The notes beneath the pieces were generated by a model. That model had not been told where the DNA came from. It worked only from the letters and a program-made list of their open reading frames with translations, and searched no databases. Source: Apostichopus japonicus (Eukaryota; Echinodermata; Holothuroidea; Aspidochirotida; Stichopodidae). From it: a DNA stretch of 64,000 bases. The stretch is taken from positions 19,257,321 to 19,321,320 of the forward strand of contig NC_092578.1 of assembly GCF_037975245.1 (NCBI RefSeq), given 5' to 3'. Each line of letters starts with the position of its first letter. Position 1 is the stretch's first letter. A program made the translations under genes and the position numbers. Shown here in pieces: positions 8,012 through 16,763 of this stretch.

Positions 8012-11000
8012 ATGAACGCTGAATCCAGTCTTAACGGAAGGTGAGTTGTTTTCTAACTCTTTGCTGTCAATTTGAACATATAGGAAGCATGCATATGTTA
8101 ATCTGAAAGATTTAAAGAATCGTACTTTCGTTTGCATGATGCGCAGTTGTTTAGCAACCTGGTATTCAGATTGTGTACGTATTGATTGTGCAAAGGACAA
8201 CGTACATTATAACCCAAATTGTATTGGGCTGTATTTTAAGTGAAACTGAAAATATTTCTCTCATAGTTTAAATTATTTCGTATTTTATCTTAATCAAACA
8301 TACAGTTAGTTATTTTGGTCAGGAGGTCAATGTTTTCCTCTCTACTGCTATTTATTTTAATATATTAGAGATTGCAAACGTACTACAGTTTAAGTAGATG
8401 CTTCGTGTCAGGTTTTGCCAGATTCGGCTTCAAACAAAGTTTATTAAGGTACAGCAATGTGAACCCTAATGAACAGAATCGGCGGAAAGGGTTGGATGGG
8501 CGCAGGCTTCAAAGGGCAGTGTGATATGTGATTTTGATTTGAGGGTGCAAACCACTCAGTTTCTTCAAAACTTTCCGACGAAATTCATTCTCTGTGCAAT
8601 CCATACCATAAATTCCAGTATTTGTTTCTTTGTTATAACAAAAAGTGCACAGTTTGATTATTTTGATCACTTTAGTTTGAAAAAAGGGGTACTCTCAGCT
8701 TAGAAAATTGGAAACTTGTCCTTTTTTATTATCAAAGAGGGGCACTTTTACTTCATTAAATTTTAAGGCTTTGAGGTTTTCACAACACTGGGAGGACACG
8801 TGCCCCTGGCTCCGCCGCCCTTCTTAGACATGCTTCAACAGTTTACGAGAATGTCATCAGCCCAGATTCTTATATGCAAAGTAGGCTAGGCTGTGAATAA
8901 CTGCCGTGAAATTGTGGTAGGTGTCGTGTTAGGGTAGAGTTTTTTTAAGATGTGCTCAGATATAAGCAACAAAGTCAATTTAAATTGTACTTTACCCAGT
9001 AAATAGCCTATACATACAAATGTCGGTGTAAATATTGAAAGAAAGGGAAGGGTCATTGGAGGGTTATGTTCGCAAGTAACTGTAACGTGGGACATATTTT
9101 CTTGTGTTTTCAGATCCCTTCCTTTTGATTTGGATGACCTCACTGGTGGTCCCAAACATCTGCAGGATCACATCTCGGCCGCCATTCGTCACTCATTGAC
9201 GACAAACGGCACCGACACCATCGAGGACGAACAACAACAACAGTTACCTCGACCTACGGAGGCCTCTAACCACCATGTCTCCTACTGGAACAAGGGTTGT
9301 AACCACCACAACTACCCCCAGCAACAGCTCGTTGTTCCAGCACTATTAACGCTTAACGCCATCGACGATTACAACTATGACGACATCGATGACGTGTCTG
9401 ATGACGAAAGCGACACCGACTCCGTGATAGATATGTCAGAACATCATGACATCATCGGAGTAGCAGCCAGAAACACCGGCAAAATTATTACATTAACAGC
9501 TACGAATGATTCGTTGGCAAACAAGAACCGCCAGCGAAGTCTTCCTGAAAATAACCAAAAGGAAGAGACACCAAAGGGCGCATTTGCTGATAATGATGAA
9601 ACATTTGCGATAGTAAATAAAACCGCCGAACAATCGGGTTATATGATTTTTTTCAGTCTAGCCGAAGAGGGTATACTGCCGGGTGAATCGTACAAGGATG
9701 CTCACCCAAAGAACCTCGCACGCGCAACGGTTAATGTAGAGTGTGAAGTTGAACCCAAAGACCCTTACGACCACCGAAGGAGGTTCATCTTTGAAAGATA
9801 TCTTGAAGATAGACGATTAGAGAGGCTCTGGATAAAAGAGAGACGTCAAGAATTGAGGATGCATCAAAGATTATCTAATGAAGTACTTTGTCCATATCGG
9901 CCTCCCATGAATCCTGCTGCGAGACAAATACAGTCAATGGACTACAGAGGATTTACTCCAGAATACCATACTTCAATTAATGGCGGGCAGTATCAACCAC
10001 CTGTATGTAGGCCTCCACCTTACCATTCACCAATGACACCTCACAAATATCTAAGCGAGGAAAAGGTTTCAACACAGATAACAAATAAATCAGTCGTTGG
10101 AGAGAAAGCGAGAAAACGGGTTCGATTTGACTTGAGCAGAAATCAAGTAAAGACCGTTAGTCGGTACCTGATTGGTGGAAAGTGTGCAATATCTAAACCA
10201 ATGGGTACAAATAATAGCTTACCAGCTGAACTAGGAAAAGAAGATGAACAGATGATCAAAGATGATCTAAAGAAAGCCAGAGAGACAACGAATGAAGTTA
10301 AACAGGAAATGACGTCACTTGCTTCTAACATTCCAGATAATATTCATTCGAAAGCCAATTTGCTTGCTCTGAAGAAAAAGTTTTTGGCAAAGTGTAGGAA
10401 GCAGAAAAAGAACCAGGCTGTTGTTAGAAGCAGTGAGAATGTTGTGGTTGAGAAAGATACTGCACAAGACAACCATCTTGCTTCTAGTGCAAATGACATA
10501 GAGAGCAGTGTAACAACACGCTGTGAGGCAAAATGTACAACAAAGCAGCACGCAGAAAAATACAGAAATTGCCAAATGTTTCACATTCATTTGAAAAAAG
10601 ATAACACTGTCCAGATAAAGTGTCATGAGGGTGCCAGTAAACTGAATGACAGACTTAAACCAGGGTCTGACAACGTCATTAGTAGAGCAGTGAATCCATA
10701 TGGCGATTTGAGTTCAAGCAAAGACCAATCGAAGACTAAAAGCCACAAAACCTATTTGCTGGCTCAGAAGAGAAAGTATTTGGCAAAGTGTAGGAAGCAG
10801 AAAAAGAATCAGGCTGTTATAATAAGCAGTGAAGAGGGTGCGGCTGAGAATGATAAAAGTACACAAAGTGGCTGCTCAAACCATCTTGCTTCTTGTGCAA
10901 AGGACACAGAGAGCAGTGTAACAACACGCTATGAGACAATATGTACAAAGCAGAACGCAGAGAAAGACAGAAATTGTCAAGTGTTTCAAGTCAACGAGGG

Positions 11001-12849
11001 GAGAGAGAACACTGTCCAGATAAAGTGTCATGCGGGAGCCGATAGACTGAATAACAGACTTAAATCAGGGTCTGACAACGTTATCAGTGTAACAGTGAAT
11101 TTAAACAGCGATTTGAGTTCAAGCAAAGGCCAATTGAAGGCTAAAAGCAAGGAAGCATATTTGCTTGCTCAGAAGGAAAAGTTTTTGGCAAAGTGTAGGA
11201 AGCAGAAAAGGAATCAGGGTGTTGTTAGAAGCAGTGAGAAGAGCGTGGTTCAGAATGAAACAACTGCACAAGGTGGCTGCTCAAACCATCCTGCTTCTTG
11301 TGTAAAGGATAGAGAGGGCAGTGTAACAACACGCTGGTACGCAAAATGTTCAACAAACCAGAACGCAGAGAAAGGCAAAAATGACAAAGTGTTTCACGTT
11401 CATGAGAGGAGAGAGAACACTGTCCAGATAAAGTGTCATAAGGGTGCCAGTAAACTGAATGACAGATTTAAATCAGGGTCTGAAAATGTCATCAGCGGAA
11501 CAGTGAATCTAAAGAGCGATTTGAGTTCAAGCAAAGACCAATCAAAAGCAAAAAGCAAGGAAGCATATTTGCTTGCTCAGAAGAAAAAGTTTTTGGCGAA
11601 GTGTAAGAGAAAGAAAATTAACCATGGTGCTGTTAAATGTAGTGATAATGAAGCGGTTAAGAAAGATACAACTGCGCAGGACTGTAATCCAAGTCATGTC
11701 AATGCTTTATGTACAGAGAACAGTTTAACACCACGCAGTGACGCAAATTGTACAACAAAACAGAATGTAGAGAAAAACAGAAACGAGAAAGCTGCGCAGA
11801 TTGGTATCGATAATTCGGCAGCCAACCTCACCAAAGGAACAGTGACTTCAAATAGCTCTTTCGTTGTCGATTTGAGTTCCAGCAAAGACCAATCGAAAGC
11901 AAACAGCAAGGAATTATATTTCCGATCTCAGAAGGAAAATGTTTTAGCAACGTGTAAGACGCAAAAGAAGAATCAGAGTGTACGAAGCAGTGAGAAGGAC
12001 ATAATTGCAAAAGTTGCAACCACGCGCGACCTCTGTTCAGCACATCTCATTGACGCATGCGCACAGAATAGAGAGGGCAGTATAACGTCAACCATCGAAA
12101 CAAAGTGTACGACATACCAGACTGCAGAAAAAGAAAGAAATTGCAAAATGTTGGGCATGAATGAGAGTAAAGAGAGCCTTATCCGGAAAGAGTATCAGAT
12201 GGCTGCCAATGATTGGGATAAAAGACGCACATCAGCCTCTGATATAATAACTGTTAATCGAGCAGCTTTGAATAACCATGCCGTCGGCCGGTTTCAATCG
12301 AAAGGACAAAGTGAGAGGTCATACTATCTTGCTCAGCAGAGAAAGTTCGTAGCTAAAAGTAAGACGCAAGAAACTAATCAAAATGTAACAAAAAGTCGGA
12401 AGGAGGTATGTGAGAACGCTGCGGCTATGAGCAATAACTATTCGATGCCTTTAAAGGATTCGTATACAAAGAAAAAAGAGAGCAGTAAAATGTTGTGTAG
12501 TGAACTAAAATATACAGCAAGCAATAACGTGGAGATAGAACCAAATGACAGAATGGTACAGGTCTATAAAATGAAAGAGGGCGCTAATCAAATAACATCC
12601 CAGCTGTGTAGCAGCATGTTGGATGAACACCTGTCACCAGTTTCTGACAGAACCTCTCCTTCGCGAGATGAGACTTTGGGTGGAGATAATGATGTTCCAT
12701 TGTGTCCATCCAAACAACCACTGGAAGCTCAAATCAGGGACTGCCACAAATCAGTCACAGCCAGAGCCTTATATAGAGAGAGTTGCGACAACTCGGGTCC
12801 CGGAATTTTCGATCACGTGACCTCATGGCACCATTTTGGGGCCAACTAA
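8012..12849 (+). CDS. Unrecognised large Lys-rich repeat protein, 5' part of a transposon-split gene
   Basis: Exon 1 is 8012-8040 (ATG, nine codons plus two bases, then GTGAGT). Exon 2 starts at 9114 after TTTTCAG. The phases fit, giving a protein that begins MNAESSLNGRSLPFDLDD. The frame then stays open to TAA at 12849 (1,254 aa), but the codons from 12762 on are transposon sequence; the native gene resumes at 16035. Visible parts: acidic stretch around residues 93-113; basic Arg/Glu-rich helix-like segment around 220-260; KRVRF at 344-348, matching the RVxF pattern for docking protein phosphatase 1; six tandem units of about 135 residues from ~424 to ~1210. Each unit has a core like YLLAQKKKFLAKCRKQKKNQ, and units 5 and 6 are the most diverged. 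I recognise no known family. Function is unknown; PP1 binding is only suggested by the motif. The small first exon rests on splice-site and phase logic. Confidence 0.75.
8041..9113 (+). other. Intron 1 of the repeat-protein gene
   Basis: It is bounded by GTGAGT and a pyrimidine-rich TTTTCAG acceptor. No repeat or coding element stands out inside. Confidence 0.6.
10354..12500 (+). repeat. Six tandem ~400-bp coding repeats
   Basis: Copies of the core motif begin near 10354, 10750, 11155, 11566, 11920 and 12320, giving a period of about 400-410 bases (one interval about 350). Conserved landmarks in each unit are the LAQK..FLAKC.KQKKNQ core, a Cys-rich middle with TTR..AKCT, an NTVQIKCH segment and a DLSSSKDQSK spacer. 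Units 1-4 are close; units 5-6 have lost several landmarks, so divergence rises toward the 3' end. Confidence 0.85.
12754..12761 (+). repeat. Left target-site duplication (GTCACAGC)
   Basis: This 8-bp sequence directly precedes the left end of the transposon. It is repeated exactly at 16027-16034 right after the other end. Both copies are read in the same codon phase (GTC ACA GC). Confidence 0.9.
12762..12793 (+). repeat. Left terminal inverted repeat of the transposon
   Basis: It begins CAGAGCCTTATATAGAGAGA and is the exact reverse complement of 15995-16026. It contributes extra codons and, further in, the stop codon to the interrupted frame. Confidence 0.88.
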
Positions 12850-12900
12850 TTCTGCAACAACGTACGTTCGAGCAGTCAGCATATGCGCTGCCATCACAAA

Positions 12901-13053
12901 ATGCCTGGCTGTTCAGCGTGGGGCTGTTCAAATCGTCCCGAAAACGGTTCAAAACTTTTCAGATTCCCAACAAACCTAGATAGGAGGAAAACATGGGAGG
13001 CAAAAGTAAACAGGCTTCACTGGAAGGCGAACTCCAATCACAAACTTTGTGAT
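12901..13053 (+). CDS. THAP-type zinc-finger exon
   Basis: It starts MPGCSAWGCSNRPENGSKLF and continues to HKLCD, followed by GTGAGT. The MPxCSAxGCxNR start with a C-x4-C pair, the FRFP motif, RRKTW and a second Trp before a LC pair are the diagnostic order of the THAP C2CH domain. The final His, normally in a C-x2-HF context, would lie in a following exon that I cannot find before the transposon ends. A second ATG lies six codons upstream in frame (12883). THAP domains bind DNA and occur in host regulators and in P-element transposases. Its place about 140 bases inside the transposon end suggests it is the first exon of the element's transposase or a relic of it. Confidence 0.75.
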
Positions 13054-13125
13054 GTGAGTACTTCACCTAGGCCTAGTACAATGAACTAAGATTCGTAACA
13101 CTAGGCCTAGCCTAGTCCATAACCA

Positions 13126-13784
13126 CAGGGATGTAAGTCTTCCGTATTTTTACGGAAATCCGTTTTTTTTTTTAATTCCAATAAAGTTCCACAAAATTGT
13201 ACAAATATCAAATACACAACGCGGCAAAAATGCCTGGCCCGTTGCAGCAAGCTAACTTCAATTTTCACTCATCGATCAACCAAAATACCATTTCCTGTTA
13301 CACATCGCATTGCACTGTACAACATTGTGTGTGCCATGTGAACATCGTTGCGTACGTGCGAACTTCAAATCGCCATAGCTCATTTCTGTCGTTGAAAAAC
13401 CTTGCCTAATTCACGTTGATTCGTAACTGCTGGTGCTCGACATAAGTTTCGGAAATAACGCTTGTGATATTTGTGAGCGGGTAAATCTACGGGATACGCA
13501 TATGAGAGTCGATATTCGTGATCGCTTTCAAATGTGAGACTGTTTTTTATTCCGGATTTCGCTGCGACGTATTCGTTACTTGGAGCTAGCCTAACATAAC
13601 GATAGTGTGTAAGTAGTCAGAACTAGGGGTATGATGTGTTAGAGCCCTAATATACTTTTGAGCTAGCCTAACATGACGATAGTGCGTAAGTATTCAGAGC
13701 TAGGAGTAGGATGCGTTAGGACGACATTTCCCCGGTTTCTCCGAATAGTTTTCCGGGTTTTTTTTGGCTGCACTTACATCCCTG
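13126..13784. mobile_element. Nested MITE-like insertion (659 bp)
   Basis: It has terminal inverted repeats of 13 bp (CAGGGATGTAAGT) at both ends. ATAACCA occurs directly outside on each side (13119-13125 and 13785-13791), a 7-bp target duplication. No coding sequence is seen. It contains a T-rich tract, an AATAAA (13180-13185) and a 60-bp direct duplication. The CAG-G ends resemble hAT-type MITEs; the 7-bp rather than 8-bp duplication leaves the class open. Confidence 0.7.
13583..13719 (+). repeat. 60-bp direct duplication
   Basis: 13583-13642 and 13660-13719 are near-identical copies beginning GAGCTAGCCTAACAT, separated by 17 bases, inside the nested element. Confidence 0.8.
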
Positions 13785-15296
13785 ATAACCAGGACTGTGG
13801 GTTACACCACACAGTCCTTACAGCTATGTATGGTGCACTGTGCAGTGTACATACACGCATAGTTAACATCACAGAAAACAGCATAAATTTCAGGCATGAA
13901 AATGGTCTATTTTTAACAAGTTCTGATCAAGAAAGTTGCGATGTTGGGATGAGATCTGTTATAAGGTGCATAAAAATATCTCTGCAAAGTTTAGTGGGTA
14001 TATTCCTTAAATTGAAGGCTCCAGCGTGGCAAGACAAATCGGGGATCTACGAAGCACAGTGTGCAATACAAATCACCAAGGGCTAGCCTAGCCCCCTAAT
14101 GAAAAACTGCTTGGCTCCATTGAGTCATGAGCTTGTTCGGATTACTATTTATGAAAATTTGGGTGGCGATCTGGCAGACCATTGAAATGATTAATCATTC
14201 TGCTTTGCACTTGATGATTTGAATTGAACTGGTCCAGAACTCCACTATCTTTTATGAAATAATATTGAAAAATTAGGTTACTAAAATATCACTGTAGGCT
14301 AGGTAAAAATATTTCCTAGAACATTGTGTCCTGTTAGAGGATAGCAGGTAAAACTAACAGAGTCAACTGAAAACCATAGGCCAAATTAGGCTCAGGAATC
14401 ATGTTTGTCCATGTCATACATAGGTACGGTATACAGATCCTAATTCACATTCTTACAACCGGGCAGTTCCAAGCAAAAGAGGACATAACCCAGGAAATTC
14501 AATTTGACTGAGCCTAGGCCTAGCATTTTACCATGGTTGGCGGGCAACTCACCCCCCCCCCCAGCAATCCCCCCCAAAAGAAAACTTCTCTAATTTTCGA
14601 CTTCTGACAACATATTTATGCTTCTGTTGGGGGAGGGGTTGTCCGGGGGGTGTTGTCTGGTCACGATTACCTTATCCATTAATAATAGAAGCCCATGCCT
14701 AGTAATAGAGGCTCAATTGGTATTTTGAAGAATTTCTGACTTTTTGGATCCTATAGTATATAGATGCAGCTTTTTCAAGTTATTAGACATAAAATTCGTA
14801 GATAAAAGCCTGACTCTCATACAAAAATATTCTGAAGTAGATCTTTTCAAATTCCAGCAGCAGCTTAGTTCTCATAACGCTGAAATATCCTACTCACATA
14901 TACCATATATTTGCGATGTGAGTTCCAGATTAGTGTAAATTCCTTACAGCACCCAGTTTGGATCATATTATGGTGGTAAAGTCCTGTCAGCTGCAATTTA
15001 TTATTCGTATTTCATACATTTGAAATAAAGTGTTGCATGAAAATCTTCATTTGTTTTACTTTAGTATTTGTCTGTTTACTCTTTGTCTGTTTAAATTGTA
15101 TTTTTTACTGGACTTATGGGTTACACATCTTAAACGTGTTAAGGCATAAATGTGTAATGCCTGGTAGGAATTCTAGATATACTTCCACAATTTTGTCCGT
15201 ATATACTGTAAATGCCCTTCCCTTGCCCTATTTCATTGCCCTATTTCCCGGCAGAGAGTTATATTAAACAGATATGCAGAGGATTGTGCAAGTAAC

Positions 15297-15434
15297 CACA
15301 ATGTAATCATGATTGTAATCACGATTACATTACAATGTAATCGTAATCGATTACTTCAACTTTAGGCTGTAATCGTAATCGTAATCATACATTCTCAAGT
15401 AATCGTAATCGATTACATTCAGATGTAATCGCCC
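15297..15434. repeat. TAATC/GATTA-rich palindromic array
   Basis: Repeated GTAATCGTAATCGATTAC-like blocks occur on both strands, including the self-complementary core AATCGATT. It looks like an internal repeat of a transposable element. No coding potential. Confidence 0.75.
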
Positions 15435-15445
15435 CAAACCTGATG

Positions 15446-15624
15446 TGATTGGTCCATTTAGTTACCATAGCAACCAATTTTCAAAGACCTAGCTTCATGA
15501 TTCTGTGCACCATGTCAGTTCCAGTCACATGTCCAAATATCAACTTCATCAGCCATTGCTAGCTCAAGTTACAGTTAATCCCAATTTTGACCAATCACAG
15601 GCTTTGTTTGGTTACCATGGCAAC
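15446..15624. promoter_or_regulatory. Two CCAAT plus X-box-like motif pairs
   Basis: GTTACCATAGCAAC (15461-15474) and GTTACCATGGCAAC (15611-15624) match the RFX-family X-box consensus GTTNCCATGGNAAC; the second is exact. ATTGG lies about ten bases before the first and CCAAT about twenty before the second. The arrangement lies inside the transposon. Activity is inferred from motif match only. Confidence 0.4.
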
Positions 15625-15994
15625 AATGGAAGAATGTACATTATTCCGCAACTGTGCAATATGTGTTACAATATGATATATAACCAGTCATAATACAATT
15701 TTACCGTACCAGAATATCAACTGTTGAATTTGGACTTCCAAATGTGCCAACCTCATCCCCTTGAACTTGAGCGCAGCCAATCCCTCCCCCCCCCCCCTCC
15801 CGTTCAACACTCGACGCCCTACTTACACAGCCTCGGCGCCCAAAAGCACCACAACATTATCAGGCCAAAAATAAAACCCAGAATCCCGCTCACACTTCTA
15901 CAATGCCATCGAAAAATTCCCCTATCCACCTGAACGTCCATTCCCACACATACTGTATGTTGCCCATTTGGCCCCAAAATGGCGCCCAAATTTC

Positions 15995-16026
15995 AGTTGT
16001 CGCAACTCTCTCTATATAAGGCTCTG
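15995..16026 (-). repeat. Right terminal inverted repeat of the transposon
   Basis: Exact reverse complement of 12762-12793. It is followed by the second GTCACAGC copy at 16027-16034. An ATG at 15979 lies in element sequence just inside this end, so the apparent start of the downstream frame is not native. Confidence 0.88.
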
Positions 16027-16034
16027 GTCACAGC

Positions 16035-16539
16035 TACTGAACAGCGCCACCCACGCACAAAATGGACCCTCTCAATGACGTCAAATCCTATTAACAAAAA
16101 GTCTAAAAAGTACCAGTTACGGGAGAGAACGGAACGCCAAGAATGTCAAAATGTTGATGAAACTAGCTACAAAATGAACCAAAGGAAATGCCCTAAATCT
16201 ACTGTTATCCGCAGACGCAATTGTCGTACCCATAGTAACCGCGAAGAAGAACATCTTGAAAAGAAAAGTGATGTTGGGAAGTTTAACGATCTCGCCGATT
16301 ACTGGAATCAAAAACCACGTCGTAGGAACAGACTACGCGACTTAAACCAGCTTGATCAAAACAATCATAATATTGGATTGGCAACACAAAAGAGTATGTC
16401 GCCCTCTATTAGTTATAGAATGTCGTCTGCCAATGGACACGCTACAGTTTGCAACGTCACAAGTCTGAGTTTGTTTGTCGCCATCGTTTGTATTCTTTAT
16501 TCATTTGTCTTTTACTTCGGAGACGAAGATTTGCAATAA
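16035..16539 (+). CDS. 3' part of the transposon-split gene, with C-terminal membrane tail
   Basis: The frame is open from 15979, but 15979-16026 is transposon and 16027-16034 is the duplicated target. Native coding therefore resumes at 16035, completing the codon GC|T. Joined across the insertion, the protein would be 1,393 residues. This part is basic and Asn/Arg-rich, then ends in a hydrophobic segment, SLSLFVAIVCILYSFVFYF (about 1369-1387), followed by only GDEDLQ and TAA. That is the layout of a tail-anchored membrane protein with the bulk facing the cytosol or nucleoplasm (inference). AATAAA sites follow at 16679 and 16764. Alternatively, if the element is fixed and not spliced, this is an orphan 3' fragment. 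Confidence 0.7.
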
Positions 16540-16763
16540 TTCTTCATAGTACTTTTACATATTTGGATTTTATTGAAGACGAAAAACTATCAGATGCGAA
16601 CAGCCCGGTATCCCGTGGTGCGACACTTGGAACGAAAACATTGAGACCAGCTTTATTATATCTACAGACTTTTATAAAAATAAAATTTACAAAGAATGTT
16701 GATCCATGCATCTAACATATAAGATTAATGAGAAAAAAAAACCTGTTTGTCTTTGTGCCGTCA

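Follow-up and report, generated by a model that had tools for sequence, protein, structure and literature searches.

The window analysed here is a 64,000-nucleotide stretch of the Apostichopus japonicus genome (contig NC_092578.1) in which a coding exon is interrupted by an element whose sequence places it in the P superfamily of DNA transposons. We regard it as highly probable that a recently mobile, internally deleted member of one element family (family A) entered the final exon of one gene out of four paralogues, at a site linked to a short motif. The evidence consists of the anatomy of the element, the empty sites in the paralogues, near-identical sister copies, kinship with P transposons and a fixed motif spacing in two families, the second being a sister family (family B). 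The insertion is in itself ordinary. A preliminary description of the locus had recognised the interrupted frame but was incomplete, since it missed the P-superfamily identity, the four paralogues (two of them frame-broken) and the fit to an off-centre target motif.

The element occupies window positions 12762-16026 (3,265 bp). Its inverted ends are perfect over 32 bp (33 counting one base of the duplication), and a perfect 8-bp duplication, GTCACAGC, flanks it at 12754-12761 and 16027-16034. Both the 32-bp termini and the direct repeat had been reported before, and both were found again at these positions. The features of the locus are as follows.

8012-8040, plus strand: host exon 1, coding part (ATG...GGAAG, donor GTGAGT at 8041); ATG and donor conserved in three paralogues, model by homology
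9114-12761, plus strand: host exon 2, coding part before the insertion, including the first GTCACAGC; open frame, paralogue alignment
12754-12761, plus strand: target-site duplication, left copy GTCACAGC; single and uninterrupted in paralogues L002 and L003
12762-16026, plus strand: non-autonomous P-superfamily transposon, 3,265 bp, by its sequence; terminal inverted repeats and duplication, near-identical sister copies, genome-wide ends
12762-12793, plus strand: left terminal inverted repeat, 32 bp
12827-12845, plus strand: left subterminal inverted repeat, 66 bp from the end
12901-13053, plus strand: THAP-domain coding exon, donor GTGAGT at 13054; PF05485, same frame in copies L011 and L012
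13126-13784, no strand: probable small nested insertion within the element; inverted CAGGGATGTAAGT ends, 7-bp repeat ATAACCA
15968-15986, minus strand: right subterminal inverted repeat, 41 bp from the end
15995-16026, minus strand: right terminal inverted repeat, 32 bp
16027-16034, plus strand: target-site duplication, right copy GTCACAGC
16035-16539, plus strand: 3' coding part of host exon 2, beyond the insertion and including the stop codon; over 16035-16700 the identity to three paralogues is 90-93%
16043-16052, plus strand: off-centre target motif AGCGCCACCC, 9/10 to RSYGCCMYCT, 9th to 18th base outside the duplication
16456-16512, plus strand: predicted C-terminal membrane segment VTSLSLFVAIVCILYSFVF, aa 1367-1385 of 1393; hydropathy

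Joining 8012-8040, 9114-12761 and 16035-16539 gives a coding sequence of 4,182 nt and 1,393 aa with no internal stop, in which exon 1 joins in frame to an acceptor at 9112-9113. The ATG, the donor and the acceptor on which this model is based are conserved across three paralogues. When we scanned the genome assembly (G000; 671.6 Mb in 35 contigs, to whose contigs and places the C- and L-numbers refer), each half of the host exon had four matches, the window included. At the other three places (L001 to L003) the halves run into each other here without an insert, and the two halves are therefore one gene. The last 354 bp of exon 2 ahead of the duplication are 84-91% identical to the three paralogues, and the remainder aligns too. 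L001 lies on the same contig at a distance of 2 Mb and reads through as one frame of 1,403 aa, exon 1 included; its peptide at the site reads DTDTEQ, and its site letters differ from GTCACAGC. L002 and L003 have one GTCACAGC each, but their frames are broken. The window gene and L001 share 78% amino-acid identity, with a dN/dS of 0.66 (bootstrap 0.54-0.82) over 1,378 codons.

These comparisons bear out the earlier proposals that a DNA transposon is inserted here, that a 3.6-kb exon continues into a 505-bp 3' part with both undamaged, and that one gene lies on both sides. The argument from a shared codon phase and a length divisible by three does not hold. The element and one repeat together measure 3,273 bp, but the frame is restored whenever an element of any length leaves together with one target duplicate, so that neither property carries information; divisibility by three is a one-in-three chance event. 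Chance is excluded instead because the three paralogues lack the insert here and a perfect 8-bp duplication flanks every one of 30 other copies of the element.

Two side observations concern the host gene. Its exon (at about 10350-12000) and L001 to L003 contain a degenerate internal repeat array with units of about 400 bp that cross-align among the paralogues. An APOBEC4-like match of the 3' half was weak (E 0.0096, below the cut-off) and was set aside.

Family A has 121 terminal inverted repeat (TIR) ends genome-wide at two or fewer mismatches, while the control gave none. Each end of the window element is matched at 92-100% identity at 40 or more places (the best 40 of 96 and 103 candidates), and four full-length sister copies are 99.6-99.8% identical to it, so the insertion is recent, as had been suggested. 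All 31 paired family copies, the window included, have a perfect 8-bp target-site duplication (TSD), as do 11 of 14 further pairs. The family-B TIR is identical to that of family A at 28 of 32 positions and has 354 ends at one mismatch or fewer. A matching 8-bp TSD was found in four of five family-B pairs, and in the fifth an 18-nt remnant of a TIR precedes the TSD and accounts for the exception.

The first exon of the element, and only that exon, encodes a THAP domain (Pfam PF05485, E 1.4e-6, 29.4 bits vs a cut-off of 23.9), and subterminal inverted repeats lie at unequal distances (66 and 41 bp) from the ends. Aligned with the 3.2-kb form, two longer copies (L011 and L012) show a 7-bp overlap at the join, as an internal deletion would give, and L012 carries a P-transposase-like, pre-catalytic exon. 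A relative, L014, matches the Drosophila P transposase structure 6p5a at E 6.4e-32, with Pfam RNaseH_N and GBD above the cut-off. In family B, copy L129 retains the TIRs of both ends and a matching TSD, and it contains a 571-aa transposase open reading frame (ORF), with Pfam and homology matches at that place. Because of the THAP exon, the P-type ends, the L012 exon and the ORF of the sister family, the window element is to be classed as a non-autonomous P-superfamily transposon, presumably moved by a transposase supplied from elsewhere. Another family-A copy, L004 (C20:10441350-10449150), has about 4.4 kb of extra internal DNA and no ORF longer than 139 aa.

At the window site GTCACAGC is followed by 8 nt and then by AGCGCCACCC. 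In the 31 copies with which we began, 21 of the 31 aligned insertion sites had the word AGCG (or CGCT on the other side) at the 9th base out from the duplication (+9); it was at the 4th base in 12 sites and at the 5th in a single one, and the 26 remaining offsets of the scan gave none. The 4th-base signal arises largely because one repeat, repeat C, hosts many sites. Outside repeat C, AGCG was at +9 in 8 of 18 of these first sites. We then turned to 14 further pairs, of which nine had the word at +9 (three of seven outside repeat C). Repeat C, marked by CTAAGCGGAGCGCCACCA or a close variant beside the duplication, is present at 20 of the 50 paired sites (e.g. L019, L031, L047, L055, L059, L063 and L067).

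A longer, CTCF-derived consensus, RSYGCCMYCT, in which one letter (Y) was added to the published core, was chosen after all of these sites had been seen. It was scored on the 50 paired sites, with the 20 in repeat C set aside and 30 counted, including four that abut another element end and two without a perfect duplication (L093 and L121); single ends (12 + 9) were left out. Matches of at least 9/10 lay at the expected offset in 14 of the 30 sites vs two in total at 77 other offsets, and perfect matches in six vs none. Lowering the threshold to 8/10 gave 18 at the offset and six at a position two bases closer; the 77 other offsets together gave 28. The binomial probability is about 3e-36 at the window's background rate, the sites being not fully independent.

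Genome scans in which the gap was left free over 30 values were made last and include sites already seen. All 29 matches of AGAGGGC before a TIR had a gap of 19. For GCCMYCT after a TIR, 45 of 52 matches had a gap of 19, five of 17 and two of 7. For GGCGCT, among the 100 of 141 matches listed, 84 had a gap of 16, nine of 11 and four of 17, with one each at 18, 15 and 9. Independent events are fewer than these counts because many GGCGCT matches resemble repeat C and others are copies of a shared repeat. Families A and B thus insert mostly at a fixed distance from RSYGCCMYCT, which starts 9 nt outside the 8-bp duplication. The strongest signal is asymmetric and lies outside the TSD, unlike a palindrome centred on the TSD, which is a habit of the described members of the superfamily and not a criterion for classification.

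We propose that the family-A element was inserted by cut-and-paste, with a transposase that would have acted in trans. The site was probably chosen through the exon's off-centre motif AGCGCCACCC, which starts 9 nt outside the 8-bp staggered cut, and the gene would have been hit because this motif lies in a coding exon. More broadly, we think it likely that this P-superfamily lineage picks its sites by an off-centre, non-palindromic motif (approximately AGCGCCCTCTATT) that is located from 9 nt outside the staggered cut onwards; its reader would be a tethered protein, either a host zinc-finger factor or a free THAP domain. Such a motif, being external to the 8 bp that are duplicated, remains intact through every insertion; the site would then stay live, and copies would stack, sharing one 8-bp duplication per junction.

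Stacked copies do occur. The listed TIR places (about 100 of 121 for family A and 100 of 354 for family B) include at least nine pairs of neighbouring elements with a spacer of exactly 8 bp, of which one is A-A, six are B-B and two A-B. In G000 these lie at:

C2:24174629/24174638, C3:9800744/9800753, C7:11645823/11645832
C7:20689564/20689573, C11:19671522/19671531, C12:26060589/26060598
C5:19702288/19702297, C7:2283075/2283084, C11:27029888/27029897

For two arrays one outer flank each was read, and the motif was present in both (L104 for the C5 array and L127 for the C11 array). The surviving motif may be the cause of the stacking. The left flank of L069 has a 20-nt remnant of two TIR ends between duplication copies, beside a new insertion; L122 has an 18-nt TIR remnant next to the duplication, and L076 a TIR-end remnant of about 25 nt in the same position. 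From their sequence these remnants appear excision footprint-like, and those of L069 and L122 are in keeping with the 17-nt stagger with which P elements are cut (PMC7776569; this and the other papers are cited from excerpts).

Several points weigh against this account. Sixteen of the 30 sites outside repeat C lack a match of at least 9/10 at the offset, so the motif is a preference and not a requirement, and L033 and L083 have no motif of note there. The ORF lists of the long family-A copies L004, L011 and L012 contain no catalytic exon, and for this reason the mobilising enzyme is one that we infer; a homology search gave no transposase match at these three places (61 of 614 candidates scored), and the match of L012 to PDB 6p5a is weak (E 0.0016). 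The host gene, whose model is drawn from homology only, had no Pfam family above the cut-off in a profile search. If the proposal is true, an off-centre motif at base-exact spacing in relatives of P would be a different way of choosing sites and a natural model for directing P/THAP9-type transposases; it could also explain the stacked copies. The window insertion would be a worked example of motif-linked targeting.

As to the reader of the motif, one possibility, which we hold tentatively and at somewhat less than even chances, is that the transposase itself recognises it (as AGCGCCCTCT), through a free THAP domain for example. The right subterminal repeat of family A holds AAATGGCGCC (9/10) and the left one TCATGGCACC (8/10), and the THAP domains of P and Galileo bind subterminal sites (PMC7776569, PMC3688188). 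However, family B shares the target motif, yet the subterminal repeat of L129, AAAATAGGTCCA, is without it (one copy judged); one end, but not the other, has a single 9/10 match next to that repeat.

Another possibility is that the motif is a host CTCF site and that CTCF tethers the insertion. Read on the opposite strand, RSYGCCMYCT corresponds, with the letter Y added, to the core of the CTCF consensus published as CCASYAGRKGGCRS (PMC6746451), and one site, L125, matches the extended 15-mer fully. On the other hand, the outer half of the extended motif, RSTGG, scores only 1.95 of 5 over 40 distinct extensions vs 1.75 expected at equal base frequencies, only 1 of the 40 matches fully, and the consensus outwards is rather ATT. 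The CTCF consensus is a vertebrate one and may not be that of this animal. We consider this reader unlikely and, with the outer half hardly enriched, do not accept CTCF as the proven one. A host reader and a transposase reader are both possible.

For the gene, our proposal has a simple consequence. As assembled, the frame stops at 12849 after 1,254 aa, the final 28 of which are element-derived. The predicted hydrophobic segment at aa 1367-1385, which has the highest 19-residue hydropathy of the protein (2.39), lies beyond the new stop, and a protein from this chromosome would end 28 element residues past the insertion and should lack its membrane anchor. The preliminary description had anticipated the lost anchor and an element-derived tail in its place; where it gave about 29 residues, we count 28. 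Nonsense-mediated decay may not act, as the stop sits in exon 2, apparently the last exon of the gene model. Four sense-strand AATAAA/ATTAAA signals within the element may end the transcript early, and L001 could cover the loss of the interrupted gene.

The insertion might instead be old and fixed, in a gene copy that is dying as two of its paralogues are. The broken frames of L002 and L003 give this some footing, but the near-identity of the sister copies argues against it, as does the fact that neither half of the gene holds a stop. The dN/dS of the gene against L001 also indicates constraint, yet it averages in time before the insertion. We judge an old insertion improbable.

It is far less probable that the element behaves as an intron, being removed by splicing to give the complete protein with its membrane anchor. 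The frame is open through both element ends, and 37 frame-keeping GT-AG pairs can be drawn (donors at 12600-12849, acceptors at 15900-16129). However, the best donor matches only six of nine consensus positions, the top acceptor tract has 13 of 20 pyrimidines (12 of the 37 pairs shown), and the polyadenylation-type signals just described lie within the supposed intron. Moreover, the window is the sole site of 31 that is open across about 990 bp of joined flanks, so insertion in long exons is not the family's habit; at the other sites the longest frame across the site is 41-145 aa, a test that short exons would escape. Introners, by contrast, do have that habit. The weak splice sites and the single long open frame led us to reject an introner-like spliced transposon, and with it the earlier suggestion that the element is removed from the transcript.

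That the element is a hAT transposon is barely credible: the 8-bp TSD is common to hAT and the CAGAG ends are hAT-like, but the THAP domain, the P-transposase kin, the long TIR and the subterminal repeats speak against it, and we ruled out hAT membership on the THAP and P-transposase evidence.

Among known systems, target-specific DNA transposons already exist in the form of Dada, whose transposase is distantly similar to that of P and whose target specificity is strict. They differ from the families described here in that they target small-RNA genes at a specific intragenic site, have a TSD of 6-7 bp and have target words that overlap the TSD (PMC3706591). Zebrafish Pdre2 and THAP9 are likewise P-like outside insects, with an 8-bp TSD and multiple internally deleted copies, but they have 13-bp TIRs, and the excerpt describes no such target motif (PMC10983969). 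The Anopheles P elements and P-MITEs share 27-31 bp TIRs, a perfect 8-bp TSD and non-autonomous derivatives; what the excerpt describes at their insertion sites is base composition, not an offset motif (PMC1562414). Among the titles and abstract openings listed from the open-licence literature searched, none described a P element with an off-centre target motif.

Galileo, also a THAP-bearing member of the P superfamily with a target-site motif, differs in its mostly 7-bp TSD, its 15-bp palindrome around the TSD and its very long TIRs (PMC4168063, PMC3688188). According to the excerpted Galileo paper, target motifs are always palindromes that extend beyond the duplication (PMC4168063). The Drosophila P element resembles the window element in several ways: it has an 8-bp TSD, a 31-bp TIR and a THAP domain, its subterminal transposase sites are unequally distant from the two ends, and it has internally deleted non-autonomous copies (PMC7776569); its subterminal sites lie at 53-63 and 41-51 bp (PMC3688188), where the repeats here begin at 66 and 41 bp. 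P transposition has been described as not site-specific (PMC7776569), and the preference reported for it is for a 14-bp palindrome with the TSD at its centre (cited in PMC4168063). Unlike Drosophila P, the families described here have an asymmetric motif that lies wholly outside the TSD, at a fixed spacing.

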